DNA from: Thermoplasmatota archaeon | Lineage (GTDB): Archaea; Thermoplasmatota; JAKEGO01; JANQNJ01 | Assembly (NCBI GenBank): GCA_028279645.1 | Contig: JANQNJ010000057.1 | Coordinates: forward strand, 1 to 55,121 | Length of the DNA: 55,121 bases | Reading direction: 5' to 3' | Part shown: one piece after another, positions 3 to 36,014 of the stretch | How the letters are laid out: each line of letters opens with the position of its first letter | Numbering within the stretch: the first letter of the stretch is position 1 | Notes under the pieces: generated by a model | Seen by the model: only the letters and a program-made list of their open reading frames with translations | Database searches by the model: none | What the model was told of the DNA's origin: nothing | Translations under genes and position numbers: made by a program

Positions 3-698
3 ACGTCCACTACGACCCTGGCCCTCGAGGCAGGCGAGCAGGAGACGGTCAGGCTGTACGTCCATATACCGGGCGACACCACTGATAACGTCGGCGCAGG
101 CAGCATCGGACGCGGTACGGACTATCCGATCAACATATCGGTCGCATCCACCACCGACTTCAGTCCGATGAACCTGAACAAGAGCGACGATCTCATCGTC
201 GAGGGACGCATACTGAGGACCGACCTCCATCTCGAGGTCATGACCCTCAGCAGCTCCCACCTCATGTCAGGCGGCCGCCTGCTGACCATTGTGGCCAACG
301 TCTTCAACTACGGCAACTGGACCAGCCCGACCGACGATGTCTCGGTGAAGTTCTACGTCGATCAGATCAACCCGGATCCCGACTACTACATCGGCGAGGT
401 TGTTCTCTCGTACAACGACCTTGCACCGGAGAACGGCGCATCCGTGAAGATCTACTTCGATCCGGCGGACCACCCGATCACCTACGGCGAGCACACCATC
501 TACGGTGTGATCTCCTACGCTGGTGACGAATATGTCGATGCGGACCACCCGAACAACGCTGAGGACACCTTCGCTTACACGGAGGCCAAGTTCACTGGCT
601 CTTCGTTCCTGCCCACCATCCTGGCGATGACCGTCGCCATGGCAATGGTAGCCACCACGTACACGAGCTACAGGCGCAGGAGAGAGGAGGAGGAGTGA
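3..698 (+). CDS. C-terminal part of a secreted/membrane-anchored CARDB-like surface protein (5' truncated by window edge)
   Basis: Frame 3 is open from base 3 to the stop at 698; beta-rich Ig/CARDB-like segments, C-terminal hydrophobic helix (SFLPTILAMTVAMAMVATTYTSY) then RRRREEEE tail. Confidence 0.75.
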   Translation, partial: TSTTTLALEAGEQETVRLYVHIPGDTTDNVGAGSIGRGTDYPINISVASTTDFSPMNLNKSDDLIVEGRILRTDLHLEVMTLSSSHLMSGGRLLTIVANVFNYGNWTSPTDDVSVKFYVDQINPDPDYYIGEVVLSYNDLAPENGASVKIYFDPADHPITYGEHTIYGVISYAGDEYVDADHPNNAEDTFAYTEAKFTGSSFLPTILAMTVAMAMVATTYTSYRRRREEEE

Positions 699-767
699 GG
701 GGGACCTAGGGTCCTCTTCCCTCGTTTCGGACCGATAGAACACAAAAACAAAGACCAAGAACAAAGT

Positions 768-815
768 CCCCCGGGGCCCGTCCCCGGGGGCACTCTTTTC
801 TTATTTTTTCTTTCG
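768..815. terminator. Putative intrinsic (possibly bidirectional) terminator between convergent genes
   Basis: Inverted repeat CCCCCGGGG-cccgt-CCCCGGGGG (768-776/782-790) followed by the T-rich tract cactcttttcttattttttctttc; lies between the ends of the 3..698(+) and 903..1457(-) genes. Confidence 0.6.
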
Positions 816-902
816 AACGGCAGCCTGGGCTAACGTGAGATGATCTTGATACAGAACCAATTGATCGGAAGGACCGATCTACGACTGATGAGGACGAGTC
901 CT

Positions 903-1457
903 TTAAAGCTCCCTGGCCAGGGACTCCAGGTAATCTATCCTTCTCGGAGAGTATCTCTCTCGCAGGTCGCCCTCCCCTCTGACGATACCGATAACTGTCT
1001 GAGCGGTAAGGTCGGGATCGTCCTCGTGGGTCTCGATCTCGAAGACCTCCGCTTTGGTTCCCATTGCCTCGGCGATAATGGTACCGATGGCCTCGGCCTC
1101 GACGTTCTCCTGCACCTTTGCTGCAGAATAGCTCCTTGCGACAAGGCGCTCCCTCAGGACGCCGGGATCGCATCTGAGGACCACGGTCAGGTCGGGTCCG
1201 AGTAGATGGGAAAGATGCCCCACAACGATGGGAACGCGATCATGGGACCGGTAATCGTCCAGTAACACTTCGAGAGCGGCCCTGATAGAATCGATATCGA
1301 TCTCGAAAGTATCCTGTACAGGGTCATACCGCTCCCGGATACCATCGACGAGTTCCGAGACCTCGATAGGGACGAACCCACCTTTGGATGCAATAAGCTC
1401 TGCGATGGTGCTTTTCCCAGTTCCTGGCGTTCCGGTGATTGCTATTGCGCGTATCAT
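903..1457 (-). CDS. Adenylate kinase-like P-loop NTPase (archaeal Fap7/AK6 type)
   Basis: MIRAIAITGTPGTGKSTIAELIASKG P-loop at N-terminus, ~184 aa; start chosen at the internal Met before the P-loop. Confidence 0.85.
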   Translation of the reverse strand: MIRAIAITGTPGTGKSTIAELIASKGGFVPIEVSELVDGIRERYDPVQDTFEIDIDSIRAALEVLLDDYRSHDRVPIVVGHLSHLLGPDLTVVLRCDPGVLRERLVARSYSAAKVQENVEAEAIGTIIAEAMGTKAEVFEIETHEDDPDLTAQTVIGIVRGEGDLRERYSPRRIDYLESLAREL

Positions 1458-1515
1458 GGATGAACGGGGATTATTACCAAAATTCATATATAAAAAACCA
1501 GCACATCTAAGGGGC

Positions 1516-3213
1516 ATGAGCCATCTCCAGGCCTCCCGGATCGCATTACTGTTCATCTTCATTGCACTGCTGGCAGCCTTTTCGGCCGCTGCGGAGGAGT
1601 ACACCGGTCCATCCACCATCGAGACAGACCACACCATCGAAGGCGGGGATTACATCATGGATTCCAACATCACCGTAAGTGCTGCGGGGAACCTGACGGT
1701 GGTCAATGCCACGTTCACGATGGCGAACGGGAGCGATGAACCGTACCTCTTCAACGTCGCCGGAAGACTGGCGATCAGCAACTGCACCCTCACCGGGGAC
1801 CTGTTCGGCGTGGGGATCTTCTCCAAGAACGGGACCGTGGTCGCTGATAGGCTCATCGTTTCAAGCTTCTTCAGCGGGATCTATTCGAAGGGAGATCTGG
1901 AGCTCTCGAACTCGACCGTCTCGGGTTGTAATTACGGCGTCTACTCACAGGATGGGACCGCCCTGGTCCGTTCTTCTAGGCTGATCAGGAACACCTACGG
2001 GCTCCAGACGGAGGGCTCCGAGGTCGTCGCGAACGATTCGGAGATATTCTCCAACAAGTTCTGGAACATTAGGGCGTCCACCTCTCAACTTAACATGACC
2101 GGCGGCCTGATCAAGGAGGGCGGAGATGGGATCCTACTGCGGTTCTCCGACGCGTTCCTTGACTCCGTGGAGTTTCATGACGTTTCGGAGACCAACTGCG
2201 AGGCCGGCTGCCAGGGACCCACCGTCCATGGTGCGGGCATCTATACATATTATTCAGATGTCGAGGTAGTTGACCTCCTGATGATCAATCTCACGTACGG
2301 AATATTATCGGAGTATTCACATCTCGATATCTTCGACAGCGTCTTCCGGGAGAGCCAATGGGGTGTCCATTCGACCTACAGCTCCGGAAGCGTCACGAAC
2401 TCGACCTTCTCCGACGACGATACGGGCATCGAGATGAGATACCAGCTGCTCAGATACTCCGGCAACAACCATACCGATGTCGGCGTTGAGATCGTCCAGT
2501 ACTGGAAGCTCGTGATCCAGGTCACCGATGAATACGCCTTCAACCTGAAGGACGTCGATATCATAATGGTGGACAATACCGGGACCGAGGTGACCTATAG
2601 GACCAACCATCACGGCCAGAAAGAGCTCACGATCGCGGAGTACGAGCAGAACGCCGGGATAGTTACCCGGTACGCTCCGTTCGCGATCAAGCTCCAGAAG
2701 GACGGCTATCAGATGGTAACAGGTCTTCACAATATCACACTGAACAAGGAGCTGAACTTCACGTTCGACGTCCCGCGCGCCGATATATACATCGAGAGGT
2801 TCGACCTCAAGGACAGACTCTCTGCTGGCGAGAGAAAGCTGATCGTCTGGGTCGGCAATCAGGGGGACCGGGCGGCTGCGAACGTCACCGTCACCTTTAT
2901 GGCGATATTGGAAGGTGGTCAGGAGGAGATCATCGGGACCGGTTTCATCTCATCGCTTGCCATGAACGAGACCAAGACCTCATCCGTAACGTGGACCCCG
3001 ACCAAGGGAACCTATACTGTGAGCGTGGTCGCCGATATCGAGGAGGACGAGATCGACCAGAGCAACGCAACAAATAACCATGTCAGCGTCTCCACCGAGA
3101 TATTCCAGGACGATGAGGATATCAACACCGCGTTCTGGCTCTCCGTGGTGGCCGGGATATTCATGTTCTTGGTCGTGTCGGTGATCTGGTTCAAACCGAC
3201 GCGTGGAAAATGA
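1516..3213 (+). CDS. Right-handed beta-helix + CARDB surface protein with signal peptide and C-terminal TM
   Basis: Signal peptide-like MSHLQASRIALLFIFIALLAAFSAAA; NSTVSGCNYGVYSQ-type parallel beta-helix repeats; CARDB-like ERFDLKDRLSAGERKLIVWVGNQGDRAAANVTVTF; TM FWLSVVAGIFMFLVVSVIWF. Confidence 0.8.
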   Translation: MSHLQASRIALLFIFIALLAAFSAAAEEYTGPSTIETDHTIEGGDYIMDSNITVSAAGNLTVVNATFTMANGSDEPYLFNVAGRLAISNCTLTGDLFGVGIFSKNGTVVADRLIVSSFFSGIYSKGDLELSNSTVSGCNYGVYSQDGTALVRSSRLIRNTYGLQTEGSEVVANDSEIFSNKFWNIRASTSQLNMTGGLIKEGGDGILLRFSDAFLDSVEFHDVSETNCEAGCQGPTVHGAGIYTYYSDVEVVDLLMINLTYGILSEYSHLDIFDSVFRESQWGVHSTYSSGSVTNSTFSDDDTGIEMRYQLLRYSGNNHTDVGVEIVQYWKLVIQVTDEYAFNLKDVDIIMVDNTGTEVTYRTNHHGQKELTIAEYEQNAGIVTRYAPFAIKLQKDGYQMVTGLHNITLNKELNFTFDVPRADIYIERFDLKDRLSAGERKLIVWVGNQGDRAAANVTVTFMAILEGGQEEIIGTGFISSLAMNETKTSSVTWTPTKGTYTVSVVADIEEDEIDQSNATNNHVSVSTEIFQDDEDINTAFWLSVVAGIFMFLVVSVIWFKPTRGK

Positions 3214-3237
3214 TCTGATATATCGCTGGAACACCGG

Positions 3238-5010
3238 TCAGCTGTGGGCAAAGGCGCCGACGATCATCTCCTCGTCGCCATCCTTATCGAGCCAGACATT
3301 GTAGTAGCCGACCCTCTCGAACTGGACTAGTACAGCTCCATTCACCGGGCCGATAGGTCCGATCACCGTTCTTCCCGACAGCAGGTCCGCAACCTCCGGC
3401 TCGCAGAACCCCTCCAGGAGGCTTCCATCTGGATGTTCCAGCCGTGTCCGGATCCCCGGGACACCAGCCCACTGAATTATGATGCCACCTGCATCCTTCA
3501 GGGTTGCGATATCGTCATCGACGTACTCCGCGGTTCCTGGGCCGGTGGCCCTGATATTGCACAGGTCCTTCAGACGGAGCACTGTACCGGCATCCCAGAC
3601 CTCTCCCGCAGGTACCAGGATGTCGATGACGCCGTCCTTCGAAACAAGTTCGTATTCGCGCTCGCCCAGGGAGGGGTCGCCTGGGTGCCTTGGAGCGGCT
3701 CCCTGGAGGCTGTCCGCACCCGTAATCGCCACACCTCTCGGTTCCTGAACGAAGAAGTACCTCAACGCCTTCGGATCGACGATCTCCCGGGCGTAAGCAT
3801 AGAGGTTCTCCCAGGAGAACCTGATATCCACCGCCTTGGTTCCCACCTCGATCCAGTACTTGCGGATGGCCTCCGGTGAGATACCCCGCCGGGCAAGACC
3901 CTTCAGTGTGGCCAGCCGGACATCGTACCAGCCAGAGAAGGTGCCCGCTGAGATGGCCTCCTTGATCGTGGACGTCTTGGTCAGCGCATCCTCTATCTTC
4001 ACCCATCCATAGTGAATGAACTCCGGCTCATCCCAGCCGAAGTGCTCGAATACGTATCTCTGCCTCTTTGTGTTGTTGAGGTGGTCCTTTCCCCTGAGGA
4101 CATGCGTTATGCCCATCAGATGATCGTCTATGACCACCGAGAAATTGTAGAGCGGATATACCTGGAACTCGTCCTTTGTCCTTGGGTGCGGGTGTTCAAC
4201 GATCCTGAATGCTGGAAAGTCACGGACCGCAGGGTTCCTGTGCTCAAGGTCTGTCCTGATGATCATTGTGGCCTCACCGGGAGCGAATCCGCCTGACAAC
4301 ATCCTCTCCCATTGCTCCAGGTTCTCATCGATACCGGTGTCCCGGTGGGGACAGGGCTTCGACGCGGCCTTGAGCTCCCGCCACTCCTCGCTGTCGCATG
4401 TGCAGATATAGCCGCCGCCTATCTCGACCATTCGCCTGCCATGTTCAAGATAGATCGGGAACCTGTCGCTCTGCACCACTGTCTCATGGACCTCTACGCC
4501 GAGCCAGCCCAGCTCCTCCGGGATCATCTCGTATGCCTCTGGGAGGATCGCCTCGGGATTGGTGTCCTCCAACCTTGTTATGAAGCGGCCTCCGTAGCGC
4601 TTCACGTACTCGTCATTGAGTATCGCAGCTCTCGTATGGCCTATGTGCAGAGGACCCGAGGGTCCTGGAGCGAACCTCATGACAACGCCGTCGGCGCCGA
4701 CGTTGGGCAGCTCGGGAAGACCCTCCCCACGTTCACCGCGCCCACCGTCGAAGGTCACTCCCTCCTGGAACTCGCCCTCAAGACTCGATCTCAGGTCGGT
4801 CCTCTCCTCTGACGACATCGAGTTGATACCTTCCACGATCGACCTGATCCTCGGGAACGCCTTGCCGGCGTTCTCCTTCAGCTCCGGTATTGCCGGTATC
4901 GCTGTGGATGCCACAGAGCCGGGGTTCGCCGTGCCGCCGTACCTCTCCGCGTTCTCCAGGGCTATGAGCGCTATCTTCCTGTCGACCTCGTTCTCATAGG
5001 TGTCCGTCAC
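3238..5010 (-). CDS. gltX: Glutamyl-tRNA synthetase (archaeal GluRS)
   Basis: RFAPGPSGPLHIGHTRAAILNDEY (HIGH motif), RLEDTNPEA, archaeal N-terminal extension. Confidence 0.97.
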   Translation of the reverse strand: MTDTYENEVDRKIALIALENAERYGGTANPGSVASTAIPAIPELKENAGKAFPRIRSIVEGINSMSSEERTDLRSSLEGEFQEGVTFDGGRGERGEGLPELPNVGADGVVMRFAPGPSGPLHIGHTRAAILNDEYVKRYGGRFITRLEDTNPEAILPEAYEMIPEELGWLGVEVHETVVQSDRFPIYLEHGRRMVEIGGGYICTCDSEEWRELKAASKPCPHRDTGIDENLEQWERMLSGGFAPGEATMIIRTDLEHRNPAVRDFPAFRIVEHPHPRTKDEFQVYPLYNFSVVIDDHLMGITHVLRGKDHLNNTKRQRYVFEHFGWDEPEFIHYGWVKIEDALTKTSTIKEAISAGTFSGWYDVRLATLKGLARRGISPEAIRKYWIEVGTKAVDIRFSWENLYAYAREIVDPKALRYFFVQEPRGVAITGADSLQGAAPRHPGDPSLGEREYELVSKDGVIDILVPAGEVWDAGTVLRLKDLCNIRATGPGTAEYVDDDIATLKDAGGIIIQWAGVPGIRTRLEHPDGSLLEGFCEPEVADLLSGRTVIGPIGPVNGAVLVQFERVGYYNVWLDKDGDEEMIVGAFAHS

Positions 5011-5936: not shown

Positions 5937-6890
5937 TCATTCGGCGTTTCTATCAGACAGCTCCCTCTCGATCTCTTCGAGGCTGTCCTTCAGGAGTCTA
6001 TCAAGATCGGCACCGGGTGCTGTCTTGATGCCTGCTGCACCGGCATGCCCGCCTCCGTTGGCATCGGTCCCTTCTGCGGCCCTCTGGAACGCCCTTCCCA
6101 GGTTCACGCCCTGCCTGACCAGATATGGTTTGGCCCTCCCGCTTATCCTGGCCTCCTTCTTCTGTTCCGAAACGGTCAGAGCTATATCCGCACCGACCAT
6201 CAGCAGCGACCGGCATACGCTTCCCTCGAAGGAGCTGACTCGGGTAAACGCGATTATGACATCGCCCGCGCGCCGGAAGTCCATCCTTTGAGCGCCCTTC
6301 ACGTTGGCGATCTTCCTCGAGGGGTCGTAGTAATGCTCGGATTCCATCAGTGAGAATACCTCGGACAGATCGATGTCGTACCTCTGCATGAGCCTTGCGA
6401 CGGTCGCGAAGCTCTCATGATCCCCGAACCGGAACCTGCCGGTATCGGCGGATATCCCTGCGATGGAGGCTAGAGCCTCCTCTCGGGTTATCTCTATCCC
6501 ATTCTCGTCCAGAATCTCCAGGACCACCTCGACGGAGGAGGTCCTGGGAACGGTAAGGGTCCCGGCAACATCCTCCCAGCCTCCGTCGTTATGGTGATCG
6601 ATCACGAAGGTCCTGTCACGAGGGAGCTCCAGACCGACCATTCCCTCAGAGGATGAGTCGACCACGAGGAAATGGTCGTAATCGCTGGTGGCTGGACCGA
6701 CAACGACCGGTACTTCCAGCATCTCCGCCATCTGCACAGAGACCGCGATCATCCCGTCCTTGACACCGATGTCGTGATCTCCCACAAGGTGTCTTGCAAG
6801 CATCGCGGCCGCTAATGCATCCGGGTCCGCGCCCGTATGCATCAGGATCAGGGTCCTGCCCTCTTTGAGCCGGTCCATGCCATGGAGCAT
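5937..6890 (-). CDS. DHH/DHHA1-family phosphoesterase (NrnA/RecJ-like)
   Basis: LILMHTGADPDALAAA, VVDSS, FVIDHHNDGG, GISADTGRFRFG, C-terminal ANGGGHAGAAG DHHA1 motif; start chosen at an internal Met. Confidence 0.88.
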   Translation of the reverse strand: MLHGMDRLKEGRTLILMHTGADPDALAAAMLARHLVGDHDIGVKDGMIAVSVQMAEMLEVPVVVGPATSDYDHFLVVDSSSEGMVGLELPRDRTFVIDHHNDGGWEDVAGTLTVPRTSSVEVVLEILDENGIEITREEALASIAGISADTGRFRFGDHESFATVARLMQRYDIDLSEVFSLMESEHYYDPSRKIANVKGAQRMDFRRAGDVIIAFTRVSSFEGSVCRSLLMVGADIALTVSEQKKEARISGRAKPYLVRQGVNLGRAFQRAAEGTDANGGGHAGAAGIKTAPGADLDRLLKDSLEEIERELSDRNAE

Positions 6891-6966
6891 CCCTCGGTCA
6901 TAGTCATGACCGCACTTTAGCGTTTCTGGCAAGCTATTAAATACGGACCGAGTCGATCCACCCCGC

Positions 6967-7497
6967 ATGGAACGGATAGAGGGGGAGATCAGGGTCATCG
7001 ACGGTGAAAAGGAGGAGGCACACGTGGTCTCCACCGAGAGGTTGAGCGATCAACCCATCGAAGAGGTCCTGAAGGCCGTATCGGAGACCCTGAGATACGG
7101 CAGGCACCCGATCCCCACCGTGGACGGTGTCCTTGTCGAGGATGGCAGGATCCTGCTTGTTAAAAGGGGAAAGGAGCCGTATCTCGGCCAGTGGGCTCTC
7201 CCGGGAGGCTTCCTCGAGTACGGCGAGAGCGCCGAGACAGGTGTGCTGCGCGAGATCAAGGAGGAGACCGGGATAGAGGCCGAGATAATCGAACTTCTCG
7301 GCGTATTCTCCGATCCCGAACGCGATCCCCGCTTCCACACCGTCACGGCGGTGTATGTCCTGAGGCGCCTTCAGGGGGCTCCAAAAGGGGGAGACGACGC
7401 CGCAGAGGCCGCCTTTCACCGGCTCGACGCCCTTCCCACCCCTCTTGCCTTCGATCATGGGGATGTCGTGGCTCGTTATATCGAGAGCCGGGGCTAG
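6967..7497 (+). CDS. NUDIX hydrolase
   Basis: GGFLEYGESAETGVLREIKEETGIEAEIIELLGVFS matches the Nudix box. Confidence 0.93.
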   Translation: MERIEGEIRVIDGEKEEAHVVSTERLSDQPIEEVLKAVSETLRYGRHPIPTVDGVLVEDGRILLVKRGKEPYLGQWALPGGFLEYGESAETGVLREIKEETGIEAEIIELLGVFSDPERDPRFHTVTAVYVLRRLQGAPKGGDDAAEAAFHRLDALPTPLAFDHGDVVARYIESRG

Positions 7498-7552
7498 GAC
7501 ATCTTTTCTATATCCACTGATCAGGCTCTGTAGGTGTGCCTTTACCTAATGA

Positions 7553-8866
7553 TTACTCCCTTCTCCAGAACAGAGCGATTATGAGCAGTGTCCCGATGAT
7601 CGGCAGTATGATGCTGGCGAACTCGGGGACCTTCTCGGGCGCCGAGGTGTTCACATCATCCATGAGGGGTTTCGTATCGTTGCTCAGCCCGCCTGCGATA
7701 TTGTAGGGCTGATCGCCGATCCCGTCGTGGTTCACATCGGTACCTGAATAATCGTTCCAGTAGTTCCCCTCCTCGCCGTCGTCCCAGTCGTTGTTGCCCG
7801 TGGTGTCCCTTCCCTGGGAAGATGAACCGGTGTTGTTGATGAAGTTGTTGTGATGGACCAGGTTATTGTTGCAGCCCGATACCATGTTGACGCCGTAATT
7901 GGAGTTGTTGAATATCTCGTTGAAGTAGATCGAGTTGTAATCCGCCTCGTAGACGTCGATTCCGTATCCCGTGTTGTTGAAGATGGAGCAGTTGTGAATA
8001 TAATTGAACTCGCTTCCAGCGTGGAATGCGACCCCGGCGATCCCGTGGTAGGATATCGATGTATAGTTGATCCATGTGTTGTTGGAATCCTCTATCTCTA
8101 TGCCGGTCTCCGCATTCTGATAGATCCAGTTGTCGACGATGCGGTCGTGATGCGAGACTGTGACGAAGATGCCGTACTGTCCGTTGCCGTAGATATCGCA
8201 ATCGATCACCGAATTGTTCTCGGAGCCGCTCCCTCCGATCAGGACGCCGTCGTCGGTATTGTAGTAGGACGAACTGTTGTGCACGATGTTGAATGTCCCG
8301 GTCAGGAAATGGATGCCGTCATCCCCGTTGGAGTACATGTCGCAGTACATGACCTCGTTCTGATCTCCGTAGACCTCGATCCCATCAAGGTCGTTCTCGA
8401 ACATCTCGCAATAGGCGACCGTGGTGAGGTCGCTGTTGGAAAGGAAGATCCCGCTGCCGGATGCGTTGGTCAGGACGCAGTACCAGATGTTGTTGAGATT
8501 GTATCCGGTGATATCGATGCAGGACCCGCTTCCGGTACCGCCTCCCTGGACCGTTAGGCCCGATATATTGCAGTTATCGTGATTGACGTCGATGACATCC
8601 ACACCGGTCTCGTCGATGACATACGTTCCCGCGGTGCCGTTCCCGACGATACTCAGCTGCTTGTCGATAACGACGTTCTCATAATATGTGCCGTAATGAA
8701 CCAGGATCTCGTCGGTGTCTGCAGCGGCATCGACCGCATCCTGTATGCTGCTGTAATCCGCGCCTGCCCAGTTGTCGTCCACAATGTACGTGTCCGCCGA
8801 AGCGAGGCCCACAAGTACAAGCAGTCCGAACATCAGCGCGCCGGAGATGTAGATGTTCCATTTCAT
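7553..8866 (-). CDS. NosD-like right-handed beta-helix surface protein with PEF-CTERM-like sorting tail
   Basis: Signal peptide; VDDNWAGADYSSIQDAVDAAADTDEILVHYGTYYENVVI N-cap; EEGNYWNDYSGTDVNHDGIGDQPYNI; C-terminal VPEFASIILPIIGTLLIIALFWRRE. Confidence 0.85.
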   Translation of the reverse strand: MKWNIYISGALMFGLLVLVGLASADTYIVDDNWAGADYSSIQDAVDAAADTDEILVHYGTYYENVVIDKQLSIVGNGTAGTYVIDETGVDVIDVNHDNCNISGLTVQGGGTGSGSCIDITGYNLNNIWYCVLTNASGSGIFLSNSDLTTVAYCEMFENDLDGIEVYGDQNEVMYCDMYSNGDDGIHFLTGTFNIVHNSSSYYNTDDGVLIGGSGSENNSVIDCDIYGNGQYGIFVTVSHHDRIVDNWIYQNAETGIEIEDSNNTWINYTSISYHGIAGVAFHAGSEFNYIHNCSIFNNTGYGIDVYEADYNSIYFNEIFNNSNYGVNMVSGCNNNLVHHNNFINNTGSSSQGRDTTGNNDWDDGEEGNYWNDYSGTDVNHDGIGDQPYNIAGGLSNDTKPLMDDVNTSAPEKVPEFASIILPIIGTLLIIALFWRRE

Positions 8867-9136
8867 GATTTTCAGCTCCATTTGGAACGGGCACCTCTCC
8901 TAGGTCCCATCCTCTCTGACGAGGTCAATACGCCGTGTTAATTAATAAACCTTTTGCATTAAACCATCATTATTGGTCCTTTCTTTATATATTAACTAGC
9001 TGAATTCCAACTGTTTTGAACGGCTCACTCGGTCTGAATGCCCGAGCGGACTATCATGATCCACGTTATCAACCTGGGTTCCAGGCCTGATGCCCGAAAG
9101 GTTTAAACCCGTCCAGGCGATGCAAACCCGAGGGAC

Positions 9137-9769
9137 ATGGTCGAGAAGATAATAGAGGGTGTGAAACCCACCAGGATGGAGCTTCTGGGGCTCCGGAAGC
9201 GCAAGGACCTCGCCGAGAAGGGCCACAAGCTCCTATCGGAGAAGAGGGACGCCTTGGTGGTGCAATTCTTCGATATCATCAAGGAACGGAAGGATCTCGG
9301 AGATGCGCTTGGGAACGAGCTTGACCGCGGCCGTTCGCATATTCTGGCTTCATATATGGCGCTTGGCGAACAGCGTGTGGACCATGAGGCCTCCAGAAGT
9401 GGATTGTCCCTTGACCTGTCCAGCAGGACCGCCCACATAACCGGGATCGGGCTTCCGCGGTTCGATCTCGTCATGGCCGGCACACCATTATTGCCCAGCG
9501 GGATCGACGGCGACGGGAACCTTGTCATGGCCCGCAAGGCCTACATGGATTCACTCCCGAGGCTGGTCAAGCTGGCCGAGCTGGACGCGTCCATCGAGAG
9601 GCTTGGCATAGAGATCGAGAAGACCAAGCGTCGGGTCAACGCGCTAGAGCATATATTCATTCCCCGGCTTGAGAACACCATTAAGCATATCGAGGTCCAG
9701 CTGGAGGAGAGGGAGAGAGAGGACTTCTTCCGGAGGAAGAGGATCAAGGCGTTGATGGACGCTCAGTAG
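9137..9769 (+). CDS. atpD: A/V-type ATP synthase subunit D
   Basis: KPTRMELLGLRKRKDLAEKGHKLLSEKRDALV and KTKRRVNALEHIFIPRLENTIKHIEVQLEEREREDFFRRKRIK are hallmark subunit D sequences. Confidence 0.96.
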   Translation: MVEKIIEGVKPTRMELLGLRKRKDLAEKGHKLLSEKRDALVVQFFDIIKERKDLGDALGNELDRGRSHILASYMALGEQRVDHEASRSGLSLDLSSRTAHITGIGLPRFDLVMAGTPLLPSGIDGDGNLVMARKAYMDSLPRLVKLAELDASIERLGIEIEKTKRRVNALEHIFIPRLENTIKHIEVQLEEREREDFFRRKRIKALMDAQ

Positions 9770-27731: not shown

Positions 27732-28241
27732 ATGAGCATTGTCTTCGAGAGGGAGCTGAGAGGGATACTCGAGGCCGACGATGGCGTTCTCGAACAGGTC
27801 GTGAAGAGCTGCACGCTCGAGGAGCGGGAGGGCTATCTCTCGATCCGGAGGAATCCGTTCTACGTCGTCAGGGCAGCAGGCTCCTTCGGCATCGACCTTG
27901 TCGCACTTCGTGATACGATATCCATTCCCATCGAGGTCAAGTCCTCCGAGAAGCGAACGATCCTTCTCTACAAGGGAAAGCCCGCAGACCAGGCCAAGGC
28001 TATCGAGGAGACGGCGTTGAAGGTCGGCCTCGTCCCGATCTACGCATATCGGTTGAAGAGGTTCCGGGGCGATGCCTGGCGAGTATATACGCCCCAGCTC
28101 GATCATGGAAAGGGTGTCTACAGGATGATACAGAACCATATCCCGAAGATGCCGCGCACTCGTTCGGACAACTATGTTCTCAGATGGGACGAGGGGATGC
28201 CGTTGAGCAGTTTCCTCGGCTATCTGGCCGATGTCTTCTGA
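27732..28241 (+). CDS. Hjc-like Holliday junction resolvase / PD-(D/E)XK nuclease
   Basis: FERELRGIL...VVRAAGSFGIDLVALRDTISIPIEVKSSEKRTILLYKGKPADQAKAIEETALKVGLVPIYAYRLKR: D...ExK core with the archaeal Hjc layout. Confidence 0.7.
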   Translation: MSIVFERELRGILEADDGVLEQVVKSCTLEEREGYLSIRRNPFYVVRAAGSFGIDLVALRDTISIPIEVKSSEKRTILLYKGKPADQAKAIEETALKVGLVPIYAYRLKRFRGDAWRVYTPQLDHGKGVYRMIQNHIPKMPRTRSDNYVLRWDEGMPLSSFLGYLADVF

Positions 28242-28864
28242 CCTTCCTTTTCAAGTTGACGTTCCATGGTCTTTAGCATCATTTCAGAGATGAGGTATCT
28301 TCCGCATCCAGGGCAGTATCTTATCACGTCCACAACCGTCAATCCATCCAGGTCGGATCCCAGACCGCAACCGGGACAGAAGTACTGAAAGCTCTGATCG
28401 GCGGCCTTGATCCTCTTTAACACCTCGCTGACGGCTCTCTCATCCTCTTCCTCGCTAGCGGCATGGGATACATTCGTCCGGCTGGCTGTGGCTCCAGTGG
28501 TCTCGCGGACCTCTTTTTCACGGATTCCGTCCAGTGGTGTATACCAGGGCCCCGCTTGATAACATTCCTTGCAGTACACAAACCTCTCGCCATTTACCTC
28601 CCTCGCCTTAAAACATGAATAGCAGACCATCTTTCCACATTCACCACATATGATCCTATCCTTGGGAAAGATGGCCTCGACCTTGCACCGCTGGCACTTG
28701 AACTCGGGTCTGGTAGCACAATGGTTGCATATGAACCAGGGCTCACCATTGACCATGTCGAACTCTTGAACGCAGGTGTCACAGAAAAGGACCTTGCATA
28801 CCACGCAACCACAGGTCTCTCCGCGCTTCATCCTGTCTCCACAGATCGGACATCTTTTTCCCAT
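28220..28864 (-). CDS. Cys-rich protein A: tandem FYVE-like eight-Cys modules + C-terminal CxxC-x17-CxxC ribbon
   Basis: CPICGDRMKRGETCGCVVCKVLFCDTCVQEFDMVNGEPWFICNHC / CQRCKVEAIFPKDRIICGECGKMVCYSCFKAREVNGERFVYCKEC / CPGC-x17-CPGC. Confidence 0.8.
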   Translation of the reverse strand: MGKRCPICGDRMKRGETCGCVVCKVLFCDTCVQEFDMVNGEPWFICNHCATRPEFKCQRCKVEAIFPKDRIICGECGKMVCYSCFKAREVNGERFVYCKECYQAGPWYTPLDGIREKEVRETTGATASRTNVSHAASEEEDERAVSEVLKRIKAADQSFQYFCPGCGLGSDLDGLTVVDVIRYCPGCGRYLISEMMLKTMERQLEKEGQKTSAR

Positions 28865-28901
28865 TTGAACACCTACGATCATCACCGGTCCAGAAGATCC
28901 T

Positions 28902-29564
28902 TCATTGATCCCGGTTGCTACCGGCCTTTGCCACTTCGATGCCATACTTGGTCTTGAGAGCATTAACGACACGTTCGCTCTGCAGCCCCAATCCGCACCT
29001 CTCACATGTTCGTATATCGCCGGTGGCCCGATCTGCATCCACCCCCTTAGGGTCCCCGCAGCATGGGCAGAAGAACCTCACGGATGTCCCCTTCACACGG
29101 AGATGCTCGATGGTCCGGTCGAACTCCTCCATCGAGCTCTTATCCACACCGATACGGATCGGCCTGTATCGCCTTCGACCCCTTGCGGGTTCAAAGTTCT
29201 GCTTCCTCCTCTCCTTTTTGATGACCCTTTCCTCATGAAGGTCGGTCAACGCTCTGTAACACTCAAAACAGTATTCAGGACCTGCCAGGCCCTTTGAATC
29301 CAGCTTTCTCCTACAGTGATAACACACCTTCTTCTTGCACCGATAGCATCTCACCTCATCTATGGGAAGGACCAACGTCTTGTTGCATCTCTCGCAATGG
29401 AACGATGGATGTTGATAACAATTAGGGCAGATATATGACACGACCCCGTCGACGACATCGAACTCCCTTGTGCACTCCGGACAATAGTTCCGGTTACATA
29501 TCTTGCATCGATGGGGTTTCCTGAAGAGCGGTAAACCCCCTGTGCACCATGGACAGGTCGACAT
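28902..29564 (-). CDS. Cys-rich protein B, paralog of A
   Basis: CPWCTGGLPLFRKPHRCKICNRNYCPECTREFDVVDGVVSYICPNC / CERCNKTLVLPIDEVRCYRCKKKVCYHCRRKLDSKGLAGPEYCFEC / CPCC-x17-CERC. Confidence 0.8.
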   Translation of the reverse strand: MSTCPWCTGGLPLFRKPHRCKICNRNYCPECTREFDVVDGVVSYICPNCYQHPSFHCERCNKTLVLPIDEVRCYRCKKKVCYHCRRKLDSKGLAGPEYCFECYRALTDLHEERVIKKERRKQNFEPARGRRRYRPIRIGVDKSSMEEFDRTIEHLRVKGTSVRFFCPCCGDPKGVDADRATGDIRTCERCGLGLQSERVVNALKTKYGIEVAKAGSNRDQ

Positions 29565-29705
29565 ATCAGTGAGCTCCACTTCAGGAACTGATCACTTTCC
29601 TTAAAATCGTTTCCTTTCTCTGGGATCGGGAAGGCATCGGCGCACGCTGAGAATTTTCTGTGTCCCATTCATTCTTCAAAGGTGAACGGAAGATCGTTAC
29701 GAAGC

Positions 29706-30113
29706 CTACTTGTCGCAATCGCAGTCATCCTTCCCGGTATGGCGTGCGGTGTGAACGAACAACCTCTTCCCATCCGATGTGATGAACGCTGTTGGATACA
29801 CGCACGAGAAGCAGTGCATGTCGTTGTTGGGATCGTAGATGTTCTTCTCCACGATATCGTTCGTTGCCTTCGCCTCCATCAGCAGACATCCTTCAAGGGG
29901 CTCCTCCGATCTGTGGAACGCTCGATGGCAGCATTCACCGACAACGGACTCCGGGTTCTGCTTTAACTGCCAGTAGATCGCCTTGTTCGCTCTCAGGACA
30001 CGATGTTCCTCGTCCACGATGAACATGAAGAAAGGGAACGCATCCATGAACTCCTGTAGAGTGTCCAGTAGCTCCTCGTCATCACCGAGCTTCACTGTCC
30101 CACTGCTACCCAT
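29706..30113 (-). CDS. Stand-alone PAS-domain protein
   Basis: LQEFMDAFPFFMFIVDEEHRVLRANKAIYWQLKQNPESVVGECCHRAFHRSEEPLEGC...; Cys-rich C-terminus ending DDCDCDK. Confidence 0.75.
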   Translation of the reverse strand: MGSSGTVKLGDDEELLDTLQEFMDAFPFFMFIVDEEHRVLRANKAIYWQLKQNPESVVGECCHRAFHRSEEPLEGCLLMEAKATNDIVEKNIYDPNNDMHCFSCVYPTAFITSDGKRLFVHTARHTGKDDCDCDK

Positions 30114-30271
30114 GCTATCGCTAATATGTTGATTATTAACTATTTAAGCTTAACTAATAATGTCGGATAATGCAGTGAACCCGTTTTGACCTTTGTACTG
30201 ATTATATCGATTAGCAGCCATTCTCGGCTCGCCTTGCGCTCAATTCCGATGTGGTCGAGTTTAAATATTTA

Positions 30272-30601
30272 CTAAGCGCTCGATCTGGACCGTTCTTTCG
30301 AACATCTTCTGCAGAGGTGTTCCCTTCGACCGTTGATGGTATGTTTCTTCGAACAGGATGTGCATAAGGAAACACCGCATCCGGGGCAGGTCTTCTGCCG
30401 AATTGGATAGACCTTCTCCTCTCCGCATCTCGAACATGTGAAATCAGCTTCCCTTGAACACCAGACGCAGATGAACAGATATTCTCCGTTGACGAGATCG
30501 TACTGATCTGTACACATGTGGCAGACGGTCCTTTTACAAACCACACATCCTCTCATATCAGCTCGCGAGTTCCTATCCTTGCACATTGGACATTTTGGCA
30601 T
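30272..30601 (-). CDS. Cys-rich protein C, short paralog with only the two FYVE-like modules
   Basis: CPMCKDRNSRADMRGCVVCKRTVCHMCTDQYDLVNGEYLFICVWC / CSRCGEEKVYPIRQKTCPGCGVSLCTSCSKKHTINGRREHLCRRC. Confidence 0.8.
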   Translation of the reverse strand: MPKCPMCKDRNSRADMRGCVVCKRTVCHMCTDQYDLVNGEYLFICVWCSREADFTCSRCGEEKVYPIRQKTCPGCGVSLCTSCSKKHTINGRREHLCRRCSKERSRSSA

Positions 30602-30644
30602 CAGATCAGCTCGGTTCAACGATTAGTTCGTGGTTCAATGACGA

Positions 30645-31280
30645 TTAATTGTAGACACCCAGACTCCTGTTCAGGGTCTTGATCATAAGGTCGGTCAACA
30701 ACCTTACATTGCAATTGGGACAGTTGCCGATCCGTTCTATCCGGGTCTCCCCGGTCAGAAGCATCACGTGACTACATTCTGGGCAGTGATATGGGACCTC
30801 TTCGCCTGTTTCCTTCAATCTTCCGATGATCGGTTCCATTTCGTTCTTGTAGATCCTTTCCCGATTGATCTTCATAAGGGCTCTGTTGACGCCATCTTCC
30901 GCTTGGATCCTCTTGTACAGTTCTATTGCAGCGGAATAATGTCCTTTGGATTCAGCTAGTTCTGCATCGTCGTGCATACATTCCCTGCAAAGCCATCTAA
31001 CCCTTCCTGATCGGGTCTGTTTATTGATGCAAACTGGACAAACTGTTCTCCCACATCTGTGACAGGCCGTTGACGAATACGGAATCACTGCACCGTCGGT
31101 GCACATGGGGCACTGTAGCGAAGGATGGCGAAGGCAGAATCTGCATATCCTTCTCATTTCACCTTCCACGACATCATATACAGATACACAGGTCTTGCAG
31201 TAGATCGACCTGCAGAACACACAGGTGTGCTTTGTCTCCATGAGCGGGATCCTGTGATTACAGGATTTACAGATGACCAT
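30645..31280 (-). CDS. Cys-rich protein D, paralog of A/B with a TPR/MIT-like helical linker
   Basis: CKSCNHRIPLMETKHTCVFCRSIYCKTCVSVYDVVEGEMRRICRFC / CPMCTDGAVIPYSSTACHRCGRTVCPVCINKQTRSGRVRWLCREC / AELAESKGHYSAAIELYKRI / CPEC-x17-CPNC. Confidence 0.8.
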   Translation of the reverse strand: MVICKSCNHRIPLMETKHTCVFCRSIYCKTCVSVYDVVEGEMRRICRFCLRHPSLQCPMCTDGAVIPYSSTACHRCGRTVCPVCINKQTRSGRVRWLCRECMHDDAELAESKGHYSAAIELYKRIQAEDGVNRALMKINRERIYKNEMEPIIGRLKETGEEVPYHCPECSHVMLLTGETRIERIGNCPNCNVRLLTDLMIKTLNRSLGVYN

Positions 31281-31387: not shown

Positions 31388-32278
31388 CTACCGCAACCCT
31401 CTCCGCCGCTTGAACTCCAATGCGAACTTGATGTAGGCCTGCGCACCGGGAGAGTTCGGATTGTAGCTCACCGCCGGCTTGCCATGGCTGGGGGCTATGC
31501 CGATGTTGCGGTCCCTTGGGACCTTGGCCCTGTAGACCTTGGACTTGAAGTGTCCCTTGATCTCCTGTTCTATGTCCCGGGCCATCTTGTGCCCCTCGTA
31601 CATCGTCAGGAGTATCCCTTCCAGTTCCAGGCTGTGGTTGAGCTTCTCCTGGACCAGGTGGAGTACGTTCAGTAGGTCCTTGACTCCCTCGACGGCGAAG
31701 TACTCGCACTGGAGGGGGACCAGGACCGCGTTGGATGCAACGAGGCTGTTCAGGGTAAGGATCCCGAGTGACGGCGGTGTGTCTATCAGGATGAAGTCGT
31801 ACCGCCTGTGGACCTTCTCCAGGGCGTCCTTGAGCCTGTAGTTCATGTCCTGGGATCCGACAAGGTCGATGGTGGCTCCCGAGAGGGTTATGTTCGACGG
31901 GATGACGTCGAGGCCCGGTATCCCCGACTTCCACTTTACATCGTCTACGGACTTCTCACCGATCAGAATGTCGTAGACCGTGTCTTTCAGGTTGGATTTA
32001 TCCAGGCCGACACCGCTGGACGAATGGCCCTGCGAGTCCATATCCACGAGCAGGGTCTTGTGACCCATCATGGCCAGTGATGCAGCCAGGTTGATCGACG
32101 TTGTCGTCTTCCCCACGCCACCCTTCTGGTTGGCGATGGCGATCACGTAGGTCTCCTTGTATCTCTTCCGCGGCGGCCTTCTGGGGAGCTTTACCATCTG
32201 AGGCCTTGGAGCCGAGGCTGCAGTGGCAGCTCGTCTCTTCCTGGCCTTTCTCCTCCTCAGCCATGCGCCCAGACCCAT
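31388..32278 (-). CDS. ParA/Soj-family P-loop ATPase with a basic N-terminal extension
   Basis: AIANQKGGVGKTTTSINLAASLAMMGHKTLLVDMDSQGHSS deviant Walker A; FILIDTPPSLGILTLNSL; ATG start preferred over GTG at 32287. Confidence 0.92.
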   Translation of the reverse strand: MGLGAWLRRRKARKRRAATAASAPRPQMVKLPRRPPRKRYKETYVIAIANQKGGVGKTTTSINLAASLAMMGHKTLLVDMDSQGHSSSGVGLDKSNLKDTVYDILIGEKSVDDVKWKSGIPGLDVIPSNITLSGATIDLVGSQDMNYRLKDALEKVHRRYDFILIDTPPSLGILTLNSLVASNAVLVPLQCEYFAVEGVKDLLNVLHLVQEKLNHSLELEGILLTMYEGHKMARDIEQEIKGHFKSKVYRAKVPRDRNIGIAPSHGKPAVSYNPNSPGAQAYIKFALEFKRRRGLR

Positions 32279-32423
32279 CTTGATCACCGGTCCCTTACCG
32301 GAGGTCCCTCAGAGGACCTCCTTGTACGTTCTGAAATGGAGTTAATCGTAATTAAAACTGTTGGGCGCCGCAGGCAAGGCAGCTTCATCAAATGATCCAA
32401 CACGTCGAGTTCGGTGGACCGGT

Positions 32424-35400
32424 TCAATCCTTCAGGGCCTTCAGCTCCTTGAGCAGGGCGTCGGCTTTGGAGTCCATGTCGTCGAAGTCGTCGAGCAGGT
32501 CTAGGTCTTCATCGATGTCGTACTCGTCATCGTCCAGCGGTTTCGTGACCATCGGCCTCATCTGTGGTGTAGTGGGTGGCGTGGTGGGCATTGGGGGCGG
32601 AGTGGAGGCTTCTGGCGCTTGCTGTGTCTGCGTGCTCGTGGTCACCGTCGTCCTCTCGACGGTCGTTCTCGTCGAGGTGGCCCCCGTCGTTGATGTACGC
32701 TTGGTCTCGGCCTTCGCCTCCGCGATCGACCTGATGTTGGGCATCGGCGTCTTTGGCATCGCAAGAGGTTTTTCTTCGGGTTCTGGCCCCGCCTGGGGCT
32801 TCGGTTCGGGTCTGGGCGCCGGCTTCGGTACTGGAGGCGTTGCCCTGAGGGTCTCGATCGGTCCGCCGGTCACCTCGGACAGGCGATTGTACAGTTTGTT
32901 GAGGTCCTTGCTCAGGTTGTCGATCTGGGCCTTCTGACCACCGATGTGCTCCTTGAGCTCGACGATACGGCGCTCCTTGGTCAGGATGTCGTTCTCCCTG
33001 TTCTTGAGGGCCTTTCTCAGGTCCTCGACCATCATCTGGTAGTCTATCTTGGTCCCCCTTCCACCGGTATCGCTCTGGGCCGAAGCAAGCATCTGTTCCT
33101 TCTCCTTGAGCTCCGCCTCGAAGTCCTGAATGACCGTGCTCATGTCGGCCATCTCCTTCTCCTGGGCTACGATCCGGTCCTTCATGACCTCTATCTGCTT
33201 CTCCCTGTCCTTCACCTTCTCCTCCAGCTTGGAGCTCTCAGGATCCCCAGTACCGAGCGACTCCACCTTCTTGCGGAGCTCGTCGATCTGGGCCTGGTTG
33301 CGTTTCTGGGCCATATCTCCGTCGGACCGTATCTTCTTGATCTCGGCGTTCCTCTCCTCGATCTCCGCCTTCAGGTCCTCGACCTGACCCTTCAACTTCG
33401 ACTCCCGCTCCACGGTCTCGTCGAGTGCGTCCTTATCCGCTTTCATCGAGGATGCAGAATCCCTCTGGTCCTTCAACTCGTCCTCGAGCTTCTCGACCTT
33501 CGCTTCCATCTCCTCCAGCTTGCGGCGCCTTTCCTCGTTCTCGGCCGCCTCCGACCTTAGCTTCGCCTTCAGCTCGTCGTTCTGCATCTGTACAGATTTG
33601 ATCTGGTCGGATGACTTCAGGAGCAGCAGGTTCTCCTTCTCTAGCTCCTCCATCTTCTCCATGATGACCTCGGCCTCTTCCTCCATCTGGGCGGCGTCCT
33701 TCGACTCCTTGAGCTTCTCCTCAAGATCGTGGACCTTGCCGAGCAGGGCCGACCTCTCTGTCTTGATCGATTCGTAGACACCCTCTATCTTCTCCAGCTC
33801 CTCGATGTGCTCACGGGCGGCCCTCTTGTCAGCCTCGAACTCGTGGACCTTCTTCTCGAGCGTGCTCTCGAGCTCGGTGACCGACCTTCTGCTCGCCTCG
33901 AGCTCTTCAAGAAGCTCCTTCCGGTCCTTATCGACGTTCTCAAGGTCGGCCTTCAGGTTCTTGTAGTCGCGCTCCACCTGTTTGAGCTCCTTGATCTCGA
34001 GGTCCTGCTGTTTGTTCTTCTCCTCCAGGACCCTCCGCTTGTCCTCTCCCTCCTTGAGCTGCTCGAGCAGCGGCTGGAGGCCGTCGATGTCCTTTTGCAG
34101 CGACTCGTTCTCCCTCTTCAGGACCTTGAGCTCGGCAGATACGCCCTCGAACTCCTTCATCGATTCGCGAAGGGCCGTGTTCTCCCTCTCTACCCCCTTG
34201 AGCCGGTCCATCTCCTTGAGACGGTCCTCGCTGTCGTTGACGATCTTGCGCAGCCTCCGGACCTCGTCCTTCGAACTGGCGAGATCTGCTGAAACGTTAT
34301 CGAACTCACGTACGCCGTCCTTGAGGACCTCGTTCTCCTTCTCGAGAGACCTCAGCTTCTCGAGGTCCTTCTTCAGTAGCTCGTGGTCCTTCAACCGGCC
34401 CAGGAGCTCGTCCTTATCCCCCTGGATGCGGCTGAGGCCGGTCCTCACCCGATCCATCTCGAGGTCGCGCCCTTCAAGGGTCTCCTCGAGACCAGCGACC
34501 TGGTTCCGAAGGTCGGAGTTCTCCTTCTTCACCTCCTCCATCTTCTTGATCATAGCCTCAAGCGACCTGATCTGCCCGTTAAGGTCTCCCACCTTGCGGG
34601 CTGCCTCCTCACGGACGTTCCTGAGGATAATACCGTGGTTCCGCTCGAGCTCGTCGGTCCTCTTGGCTGTTTCCTTCTCCGCCTTCTCCAGTTCTTCCTT
34701 GAGTCTTTCTTCGAACGCGGTCTCGCGGTCCTTCGAGCTCAGCTCAAGTTCCTTCACCTTCTTCTCCAGCTCGTCGGCGTGCTTGGTGCTGCTCTTCGAC
34801 GACCTCTGGAGCTCCCAGATGTTCTGGTCCTTCTCCTTCGCGATTGACTGGTAATGGGAAAGCTGATCTGTGAGATGTTTAACACGCTTCTCGAGGTCTT
34901 CCAGCAGCTTCTTGTTCTCGGATTTCGCGCTTTCCTGGGACGACTGGATCGATTCCTTCTCCTTCTTCAATCTATCGAGCTCTGTTCGGGTCCCCTTCAA
35001 CTTCCCTTCCAGCTCCTTGATCCTCTCGGTATGATCCTTCTGCAATCTGGCCGTCTCGGAACTGAGCTTGTCCTGAAGCGTGTGTGTCTCCTTCTTGAGC
35101 TTGTCACTGAGACTGCCGATCTCTGAGGCATGATCGCGCCTCATGTTATCGATGATGCTCTCCTTCTCCTCGATGATCTTCATCAGACCGTTGACCTTGT
35201 TCTCGTGCTTCCGGTACTCCCGGAGGATCGCCTCCTTCTCGGAGATCGCCTTGTCGATCTCTTGCCGGTGCTTCTGTTCTATCCTCTTCAGGGTGGACTC
35301 GAGCTCTCTCTCGCTCCCTCGCAGCTCCTGAACGTTCATCCTCAGGTGCTTCACATCCTCTTCGAGGGCCTTCTTGTCCACGCTGAGCCTGGAGAGCTCG

Positions 35401-36014
35401 CTCTTCAATCCTTCCCTCTCACCATCGGACCTCTTCGTCAGGTCGTCGATCCGTTTATCATAGGTCTCTGCGATCTCTATCTTCTCCCGCTTCGCCCTCT
35501 CGAGCTGGGCCGTGACGTTGCTCCTCTCCTTCTCCAGAACATCTATTCGCTTGGTCAGGTCCGCTTCCCGTTCGCGTATGAAGAAGCTCTCCTTCTTGAT
35601 GCGGTCTATCTCCTCGAGGTCGATCTTCTCGACCTCCTTTTCCCTGTCCTCCACCACCCTTATCCTATCCTCGAGCTTCCTCGTCCTGACCTCCATGTCC
35701 TTCTCCAGACCTTCGACCAGGATCTCCTTGCTCTTGACCTCGGCCAGGCGTTCCTCGGATTCCTTCTCAAGCGCGCCCCTGCGCTGGTCCATATCCTTCT
35801 GATGGGCCTCCTCCCTCTGCTTGATCTCCTTCTGGAACCTATCCTTATCCTGTTCGTGCCTCTTCTCGGCCTCCTTCAAGGAGGATTCCCTTCCTTCGAG
35901 GAGCTTCTCAAGCTTTTTTACCTCGTCCTCCCTCTCCCTCATCTCCTCCTCGAACTCCCTGATCTGGTCCAGAAAGCTTCCGCGCGATTTTCCGCTGTCT
36001 TCGTCACCGCTCAT
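32424..36014 (-). CDS. 1,196-aa coiled-coil protein with Thr/Pro-rich linker and acidic C-terminal tail
   Basis: Near-continuous heptad-like E/K/L/R sequence; no Walker motifs seen; C-terminal PAPRPEPKPQAGPEPEE...TTVTTSTQTQQAPEAS...DDDEYDIDEDLDLLDDFDDMDSKADALLKELKALKD. Confidence 0.85.
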   Translation of the reverse strand: MSGDEDSGKSRGSFLDQIREFEEEMREREDEVKKLEKLLEGRESSLKEAEKRHEQDKDRFQKEIKQREEAHQKDMDQRRGALEKESEERLAEVKSKEILVEGLEKDMEVRTRKLEDRIRVVEDREKEVEKIDLEEIDRIKKESFFIREREADLTKRIDVLEKERSNVTAQLERAKREKIEIAETYDKRIDDLTKRSDGEREGLKSELSRLSVDKKALEEDVKHLRMNVQELRGSERELESTLKRIEQKHRQEIDKAISEKEAILREYRKHENKVNGLMKIIEEKESIIDNMRRDHASEIGSLSDKLKKETHTLQDKLSSETARLQKDHTERIKELEGKLKGTRTELDRLKKEKESIQSSQESAKSENKKLLEDLEKRVKHLTDQLSHYQSIAKEKDQNIWELQRSSKSSTKHADELEKKVKELELSSKDRETAFEERLKEELEKAEKETAKRTDELERNHGIILRNVREEAARKVGDLNGQIRSLEAMIKKMEEVKKENSDLRNQVAGLEETLEGRDLEMDRVRTGLSRIQGDKDELLGRLKDHELLKKDLEKLRSLEKENEVLKDGVREFDNVSADLASSKDEVRRLRKIVNDSEDRLKEMDRLKGVERENTALRESMKEFEGVSAELKVLKRENESLQKDIDGLQPLLEQLKEGEDKRRVLEEKNKQQDLEIKELKQVERDYKNLKADLENVDKDRKELLEELEASRRSVTELESTLEKKVHEFEADKRAAREHIEELEKIEGVYESIKTERSALLGKVHDLEEKLKESKDAAQMEEEAEVIMEKMEELEKENLLLLKSSDQIKSVQMQNDELKAKLRSEAAENEERRRKLEEMEAKVEKLEDELKDQRDSASSMKADKDALDETVERESKLKGQVEDLKAEIEERNAEIKKIRSDGDMAQKRNQAQIDELRKKVESLGTGDPESSKLEEKVKDREKQIEVMKDRIVAQEKEMADMSTVIQDFEAELKEKEQMLASAQSDTGGRGTKIDYQMMVEDLRKALKNRENDILTKERRIVELKEHIGGQKAQIDNLSKDLNKLYNRLSEVTGGPIETLRATPPVPKPAPRPEPKPQAGPEPEEKPLAMPKTPMPNIRSIAEAKAETKRTSTTGATSTRTTVERTTVTTSTQTQQAPEASTPPPMPTTPPTTPQMRPMVTKPLDDDEYDIDEDLDLLDDFDDMDSKADALLKELKALKD

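Follow-up and report, generated by a model that had tools for sequence, protein, structure and literature searches.

Within a 55,121-nt stretch of the genome of a Thermoplasmatota archaeon (contig JANQNJ010000057.1; genome of 2.24 Mb, 82% complete), hereafter the window, we characterized a cluster of four genes encoding the proteins A, B, C, and D. The cluster is real and lineage-specific, and its products are a variant of a known domain type. Each N-terminus is predicted to fold into two homologous, directly abutting binuclear treble-clef fingers of the FYVE/FYVE_2 type, which presumably bind zinc. As for function, we propose that A-D serve as lineage-specific protein-interaction adaptors, a reading to which we give an even chance.

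Tandem eight-cysteine modules

The four open reading frames (ORFs) were present where an initial annotation of this DNA had located them, all on the minus strand, and the cysteine spacings of modules 1 and 2 followed its formulas exactly. Counted between successive CxxC pairs (module 1 / spacer / module 2), the residues numbered 11,4,14 / 7 / 12,4,13 in both A and C, 12,4,14 / 7 / 12,4,14 in B, and 12,4,14 / 7 / 12,4,13 in D. All 64 of the 64 module cysteines were retained across the four proteins at about 28-39% identity. The [FY]D-x-V-x-G core, previously described as invariant in module 1, was found there in all four (FDMVNG in A, FDVVDG in B, YDLVNG in C, and YDVVEG in D), and in none of the second modules of A-D. 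The two modules were homologous to each other (hhalign 94.6%), and their sequences are consistent with an internal duplication.

A DNA pattern comprising the last six module-1 cysteines plus the [FY] and G positions occurred four times in the window and was absent from 100 dinucleotide shuffles. Over the whole genome, the same pattern again resulted in four occurrences, and the reversed control in none.

Predicted fold and relation to the FYVE family

The AlphaFold model of C had a mean predicted local distance difference test (pLDDT) value of 79.5, with module 1 at about 73-91 and module 2 at about 68-79. For B, the mean was 65.8; module 1 reached about 80-90, the ribbon about 55, and the linker remained below 50. 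The Foldseek comparison of these models, proposed in the initial annotation, gave FYVE or FYVE_2 fingers as the best matches. All matches with a probability of at least 0.96 to either of these moderate-confidence models belonged to these two types, with E above 0.001 throughout. They comprised RIM2 2a20 (probability 1.00), Slp4 5x6t (1.00, TMt 0.72), RIM 2cjs (TMt 0.73), rabphilin 1zbd, CARP2 1y02, EEA1 1joc, RUFY1 2yw8, Hrs 3zyq, and ZFYVE16 3t7l.

The sequence-profile search of the PDB placed rabphilin first (E 0.0045) and EEA1 second (0.013); Hrs, WDFY3, Vps27, melanophilin, and RIM2 appeared at lower ranks, mixed in with other zinc fingers. Strong-looking PDB matches to alphaRep designs were discarded as charged-helix matches to the linker. 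In profile-profile comparisons, module 1 matched FYVE at 82%, RING at 33%, LIM at 1%, and the TFIIS ribbon at 0.6%, and module 2 matched FYVE at 76%, the TFIIS ribbon at 36%, LIM at 14%, and RING at 2%, the RING, LIM, and ribbon decoy sequences being rough controls. The nearest solved structures are FYVE and FYVE_2 fingers, and the description of A-D as paralogues with tandem, probably treble-clef modules is supported.

FYVE (PF01363) was the leading Pfam match of A, B, and D. The scores were 16.7 (A), 18.1 (B), 13.4 (C), and 17.4 bits (D) against a cut-off of 27.8, which none of them reached, and a Pfam FYVE search of the genome itself returned no match at E 0.001. The Pfam FYVE_2 family (PF02318) gave 18.3 bits for C and 8.1 for D, below its cut-off of 27.2. 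The modules of A-D place their eight cysteines in FYVE spacing, with a last loop of 13-14 residues versus about 16 in FYVE; the eukaryotic spacing had been stated correctly, as the EEA1 FYVE domain has spacers of 12, 4, and 16.

The signatures of lipid binding were absent or partial. No WxxD stands ahead of either module in A-D, the first cysteine being residue 4-5, and RVC at the seventh cysteine is replaced by FIC in A and C, YIC in B, and RIC in D. The resemblance to RRHHCR that had been pointed out is retained as a partial KPHRCK in B and KHTCV in D; a complete R(R/K)HHCR occurs in none of the four, and A (ETCGCV) and C (DMRGCV) lack even the partial form. Judged by sequence, A-D are FYVE-like and not FYVE proteins. 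Membership in the FYVE family did not hold, and phosphoinositide binding is unsupported because the Pfam cut-off was missed and the lipid-binding signatures are absent or partial.

Common descent or convergence

When the modules were shuffled with their cysteines fixed and scored with an archaeal FYVE profile, the real score was reached by 0/500 shuffles for module 1 of B, 7/500 for that of D, and 14/500 for that of A. Module 1 of C and all four second modules did not clearly beat their shuffles. Profile comparison with archaeal proteins that pass the Pfam FYVE cut-off gave 96.8% and 92.8%, whereas RING reached 70% against the same profile.

The initial annotation had raised the possibility of convergent spacing, in which case the modules would be treble clefs that share no ancestry with eukaryotic FYVE; this concerns their origin and not their function. 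That every match falls below its family cut-off fits such an origin, which may hold for module 1 of C and the second modules. It is less likely for the first modules of B, D, and A, which beat 500, 493, and 486 of the 500 shuffles, and the lower value that RING gave against the archaeal FYVE profile also opposes it. We consider convergence possible although rather unlikely, and infer homology of the A-D modules with eukaryotic FYVE.

C-terminal zinc ribbon

The earlier domain description captured the tandem modules but overlooked a third, four-cysteine zinc ribbon of the CxxC...CxxC type in A (163/184), B (166/187), and D (166/187). C ends after module 2 and has no such ribbon. A C-terminal profile built solely from proteins of other genomes scored 40.4 bits with D, 25.0 with B, and 23.0 with A, and in 1000 shuffles of each protein that preserved the cysteines the real score was never reached. 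The profile covered the full length of the D C-terminus and the ribbon part of A and B; C, at -11.2 bits, is not a member.

In other bearers, a TPR-like hairpin (AGNYEKAA...) is followed by YKCPSCG...CPYCG and is joined either to transmembrane segments or to a zinc finger at the N-terminus. With the profile including A, B, and D, 166 of the 296 genomes showed matches to the C-terminal domain at E 0.001; strong matches over the domain were limited to about twenty places, and the weaker ones were mostly generic zinc ribbons. Because A, B, and D share their C-terminus with a module present elsewhere in the phylum, the A-D proteins appear native, made in part from a local, phylum-wide component, and not contamination. 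A TPR hairpin with a short double-CxxC ribbon at the end was also seen in membrane-anchored proteins of other families of the phylum (L081, L084-L088, and L090).

Distribution and probable insertion between hjc and parA

Among the 393 genomes of the phylum, a four-sequence profile found the tandem family in this genome only. A tandem-only profile run on three genomes of the class revealed no second bearer, the other two genomes being 85% and 73% complete. No tandem relatives were found in a collection of 85,462 species by peptide scan or DNA pattern. The DNA pattern matched three loci in that collection: one real FYVE-like finger in Microcoleus (L057), one B-box-like sequence in Clostridiales (L056), and one chance match (L058). 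The Microcoleus finger, around 2657-2746 of its locus, is the single one of its protein, which comes from a metagenome-assembled genome and also has a membrane segment at the C-terminus.

Single FYVE domains above the Pfam cut-off were detected in 7 of the 393 genomes (L136-L142), some of which could be affected by bacterial contamination. Their architectures include ribbon-FYVE proteins (L136 and L137, the former with an ENRRHKCSVCG motif), short FYVE proteins (L138), long disordered proteins (L140 and L141), and fusions of a Ser/Thr kinase, FYVE, and a formylglycine-generating-like domain (L139 and L142).

The cluster looks like a lineage-specific 3-kb insertion because hjc and parA are adjacent in two genomes of the same order, 34 bp apart in one (L103) and about 200 bp in the other (L104), with priL kept in the block. 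In the window, the two genes are separated by 3.1 kb carrying A, B, a PAS gene, C, and D. The G+C content at third codon positions was 0.54-0.62 for A-D versus 0.70-0.82 in most neighbouring genes. The marks of insertion that were looked for in the window (an integrase, a tRNA, long flanking repeats) were absent. The alternative, a loss from both relatives, is less parsimonious than a gain in this lineage.

A viral or mobile origin was rejected, as no relatives of A-D were found in IMG/VR, phages, or plasmids. The viral pattern matches consisted largely of cysteine runs of low complexity or of short frames, with two or three unrelated cysteine-rich ORFs. Defence and phage families were likewise set aside, with nothing in PADLOC and no convincing match in PHROGs.

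Proposed function and alternatives

RIM, rabphilin, and Slp use their FYVE_2 fingers in protein complexes. We suggest that A-D, four soluble paralogues, would act in a similar manner, within protein complexes instead of reading lipids. Their zinc-stabilised tandem modules would present a rigid but variable surface to a partner, and the C-terminal ribbon would dock to a partner that the rest of the phylum family, often membrane-anchored, would bind as well. The four copies may have diverged to bind different partners because the invariant non-cysteine residues (M1, D, V, G, I, P, and G) are mainly of the kind expected to be structural, and because the net charge spans +1 in A (pI 7.3), +16 in B, +10 in C, and +8 in D. 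From these residues and charges, no lipid or nucleic-acid pocket shared across A-D was visible.

Several points weigh against an adaptor role. Since the A-D block is lineage-specific, the neighbouring genes are uninformative as to a partner; nor was a conserved gene neighbourhood found for the C-terminal family elsewhere. The models of B and C were built from the four window sequences alone, and neither gave a Foldseek match in the PDB at E 0.001 or better. Furthermore, the basic character of B, C, and D (pI 8.7-9.1) would also fit nucleic-acid binding.

This last point leads to an alternative in which A-D would be nucleic-acid-binding zinc proteins, such as RNA or DNA regulators, contacting nucleic acid through a basic surface and the ribbon. 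Zinc ribbons often bind nucleic acid, and weak matches to archaeal ribosomal and Zn-ribbon RNA-binding proteins were obtained in addition to the charges of B, C, and D. However, A is neutral, so a basic surface is not family-wide, and no DNA-binding domain scored above the Pfam cut-off in A-D. Related C-terminal modules occur in membrane-anchored proteins, and the insertion accounts for the nearness to hjc, priL, and parA. We regard this alternative as unlikely.

The genome also encodes a ubiquitin-like (Ubl) system. On contig C30 (L106), pelota is followed by an operon (6623-9721) of a Ubl-like ORF (ending ...QQAGGI), an E1 (ThiF, 183.7 bits), an E2 (UQ_con, PF00179, E 8.7e-22), and a JAB/Rpn11-like protease (51 bits); the Ubl, which has no Pfam match, was assigned by its size, position, and C-terminal GG. 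In another genome (L122 in G007, 216-4631), Ubl and E2 genes are immediately preceded by the gene of a 1471-aa protein whose C-terminus is RING-like, and RING and E2 matches close together suggest a like arrangement in G018, G034, and G040.

The cross-brace modules of A-D could then be RING-like E3s or adaptors of the Ubl-E1-E2-JAB system. The operon contains no RING gene, a zf-RING_2 search of this genome returned no match, some relatives have RING beside Ubl-E2, and in the Caldiarchaeum cascade the E3 is a small RING-type protein, srfp (PMC5654768). On the other side, all eight modules have four residues between the second and third CxxC pairs, as in FYVE, whereas RING has 2-3, and the agreement of module 2 with RING was negligible. 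Moreover, a genome of the same order (G001) has the operon without A-D, E2-like genes are present in 24 of 61 genomes from across the phylum, and at the present completeness of the assembly a RING gene may simply be missing from it. We regard such an E3 or adaptor role as improbable. An extended version, in which the tandem family arose within the archaeal lineage from cross-brace modules and the TPR-ribbon domain as a substrate-recognition or E3 layer of this RING-less system, is more doubtful still.

The least credible alternative, to which we attach hardly any weight, is membrane-lipid binding as in canonical FYVE, with a basic pocket that would hold the headgroup of a phosphoinositide or of archaetidylinositol: the partial motifs of B and D lie at the R(R/K)HHCR place and RIC of D at the RVC place, whereas A and C have no basic patch there, WxxD and a complete R(R/K)HHCR are lacking throughout, and the Pfam FYVE cut-off was missed.

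Gene content of the locus

The archaeal gene content of the window includes PriL, Hjc, and an IF5B-type GTPase. Table 1 summarizes the features of the inserted block and its flanks. The initial annotation described the four zinc-module genes correctly but overlooked the PAS gene between B and C. On the coding strand, the gene order is parA, D, C, PAS gene, B, A. The pairs D-C and B-A may be co-transcribed because their intergenic gaps are short (43 bp and 37 bp, respectively). The PAS_4 protein inside the cluster stands alone and is possibly a redox or metal sensor. A 1196-aa coiled-coil protein adjoining parA (32424-36014) had no Pfam match and a short match in one same-order genome only.

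Table 1. Features of the presumably inserted block and its flanking genes (window coordinates)
Feature	Position	Strand	Domains and evidence
Hjc-type Holliday junction resolvase, left flank	27732..28241	+	PF01870, 45.5 bits; adjoins parA in two same-order genomes
Protein A, 214 aa	28220..28864	-	Tandem FYVE-like modules (5-49, 57-101), long linker, C-terminal zinc ribbon (163-187)
Protein B, 220 aa	28902..29564	-	Tandem FYVE-like modules (KPHRCK in module 1), basic linker, C-terminal zinc ribbon (166-190), net charge +16
Cysteine-rich PAS_4-domain protein, 135 aa	29706..30113	-	PF08448, 23.1 bits, exactly at the Pfam cut-off; between B and C
Protein C, 109 aa	30272..30601	-	Tandem FYVE-like modules only, no C-terminal ribbon
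Protein D, 211 aa	30645..31280	-	Tandem FYVE-like modules, then TPR-like helical hairpin and C-terminal zinc ribbon (107-204)
ParA-type ATPase, right flank	31388..32287	-	PF13614, 215 bits; synteny

Comparison with known systems

Most accounts treat FYVE fingers as a eukaryotic feature. In the archaeal phylum studied here, a few genomes have single FYVE domains, and the present genome has diverged tandem copies that lack the lipid signature. If these are homologous, this would suggest that prokaryotes had a FYVE-type scaffold whose binding role was separate from phosphoinositide recognition, and A-D are small, expressible proteins with which the idea can be tested.

The FYVE zinc finger (PF01363; EEA1, Vps27, and Hrs) has in common with A-D the spacing x2, x11-12, x2, x4, x2, x13-16, x2 and, judging by the moderate-confidence models, probably the fold. 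A-D differ in scoring below the cut-off, in lacking WxxD and the complete R(R/K)HHCR, in their shorter last loop, and in their directly abutting tandem copies. The FYVE_2 fingers of RIM, rabphilin, and Slp gave the best Foldseek and PDB-profile matches, and like A-D they have no phosphoinositide pocket; their flanking Rab-binding helices were not detected in A-D.

RING, B-box, and other binuclear treble clefs of prokaryotes (Burroughs et al. 2011, as cited in PMC4506424) are cross-brace zinc fingers, the type predicted for the modules of A-D. C gave weak matches to Prok-RING_2 and B-box, none above the cut-off, and the modules of A-D do not have RING spacing.

The TPR-hairpin and zinc-ribbon family of the phylum (L005-L015, L019, L020, L022, and L077-L080) corresponds to the whole C-terminus of D and to the ribbon of A and B, and some of its members also begin with one N-terminal zinc finger. 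No member has tandem FYVE-like modules, and many have transmembrane segments instead.

The archaeal single FYVE domains differ from A-D in being present in one copy, above the Pfam cut-off, and in other architectures. They have the same binuclear finger, with the spacing of A-D up to the sixth cysteine, and the short FYVE protein L138 closely resembles module 1 of B (LGFFSKPVKCEICGRAFCMAC).

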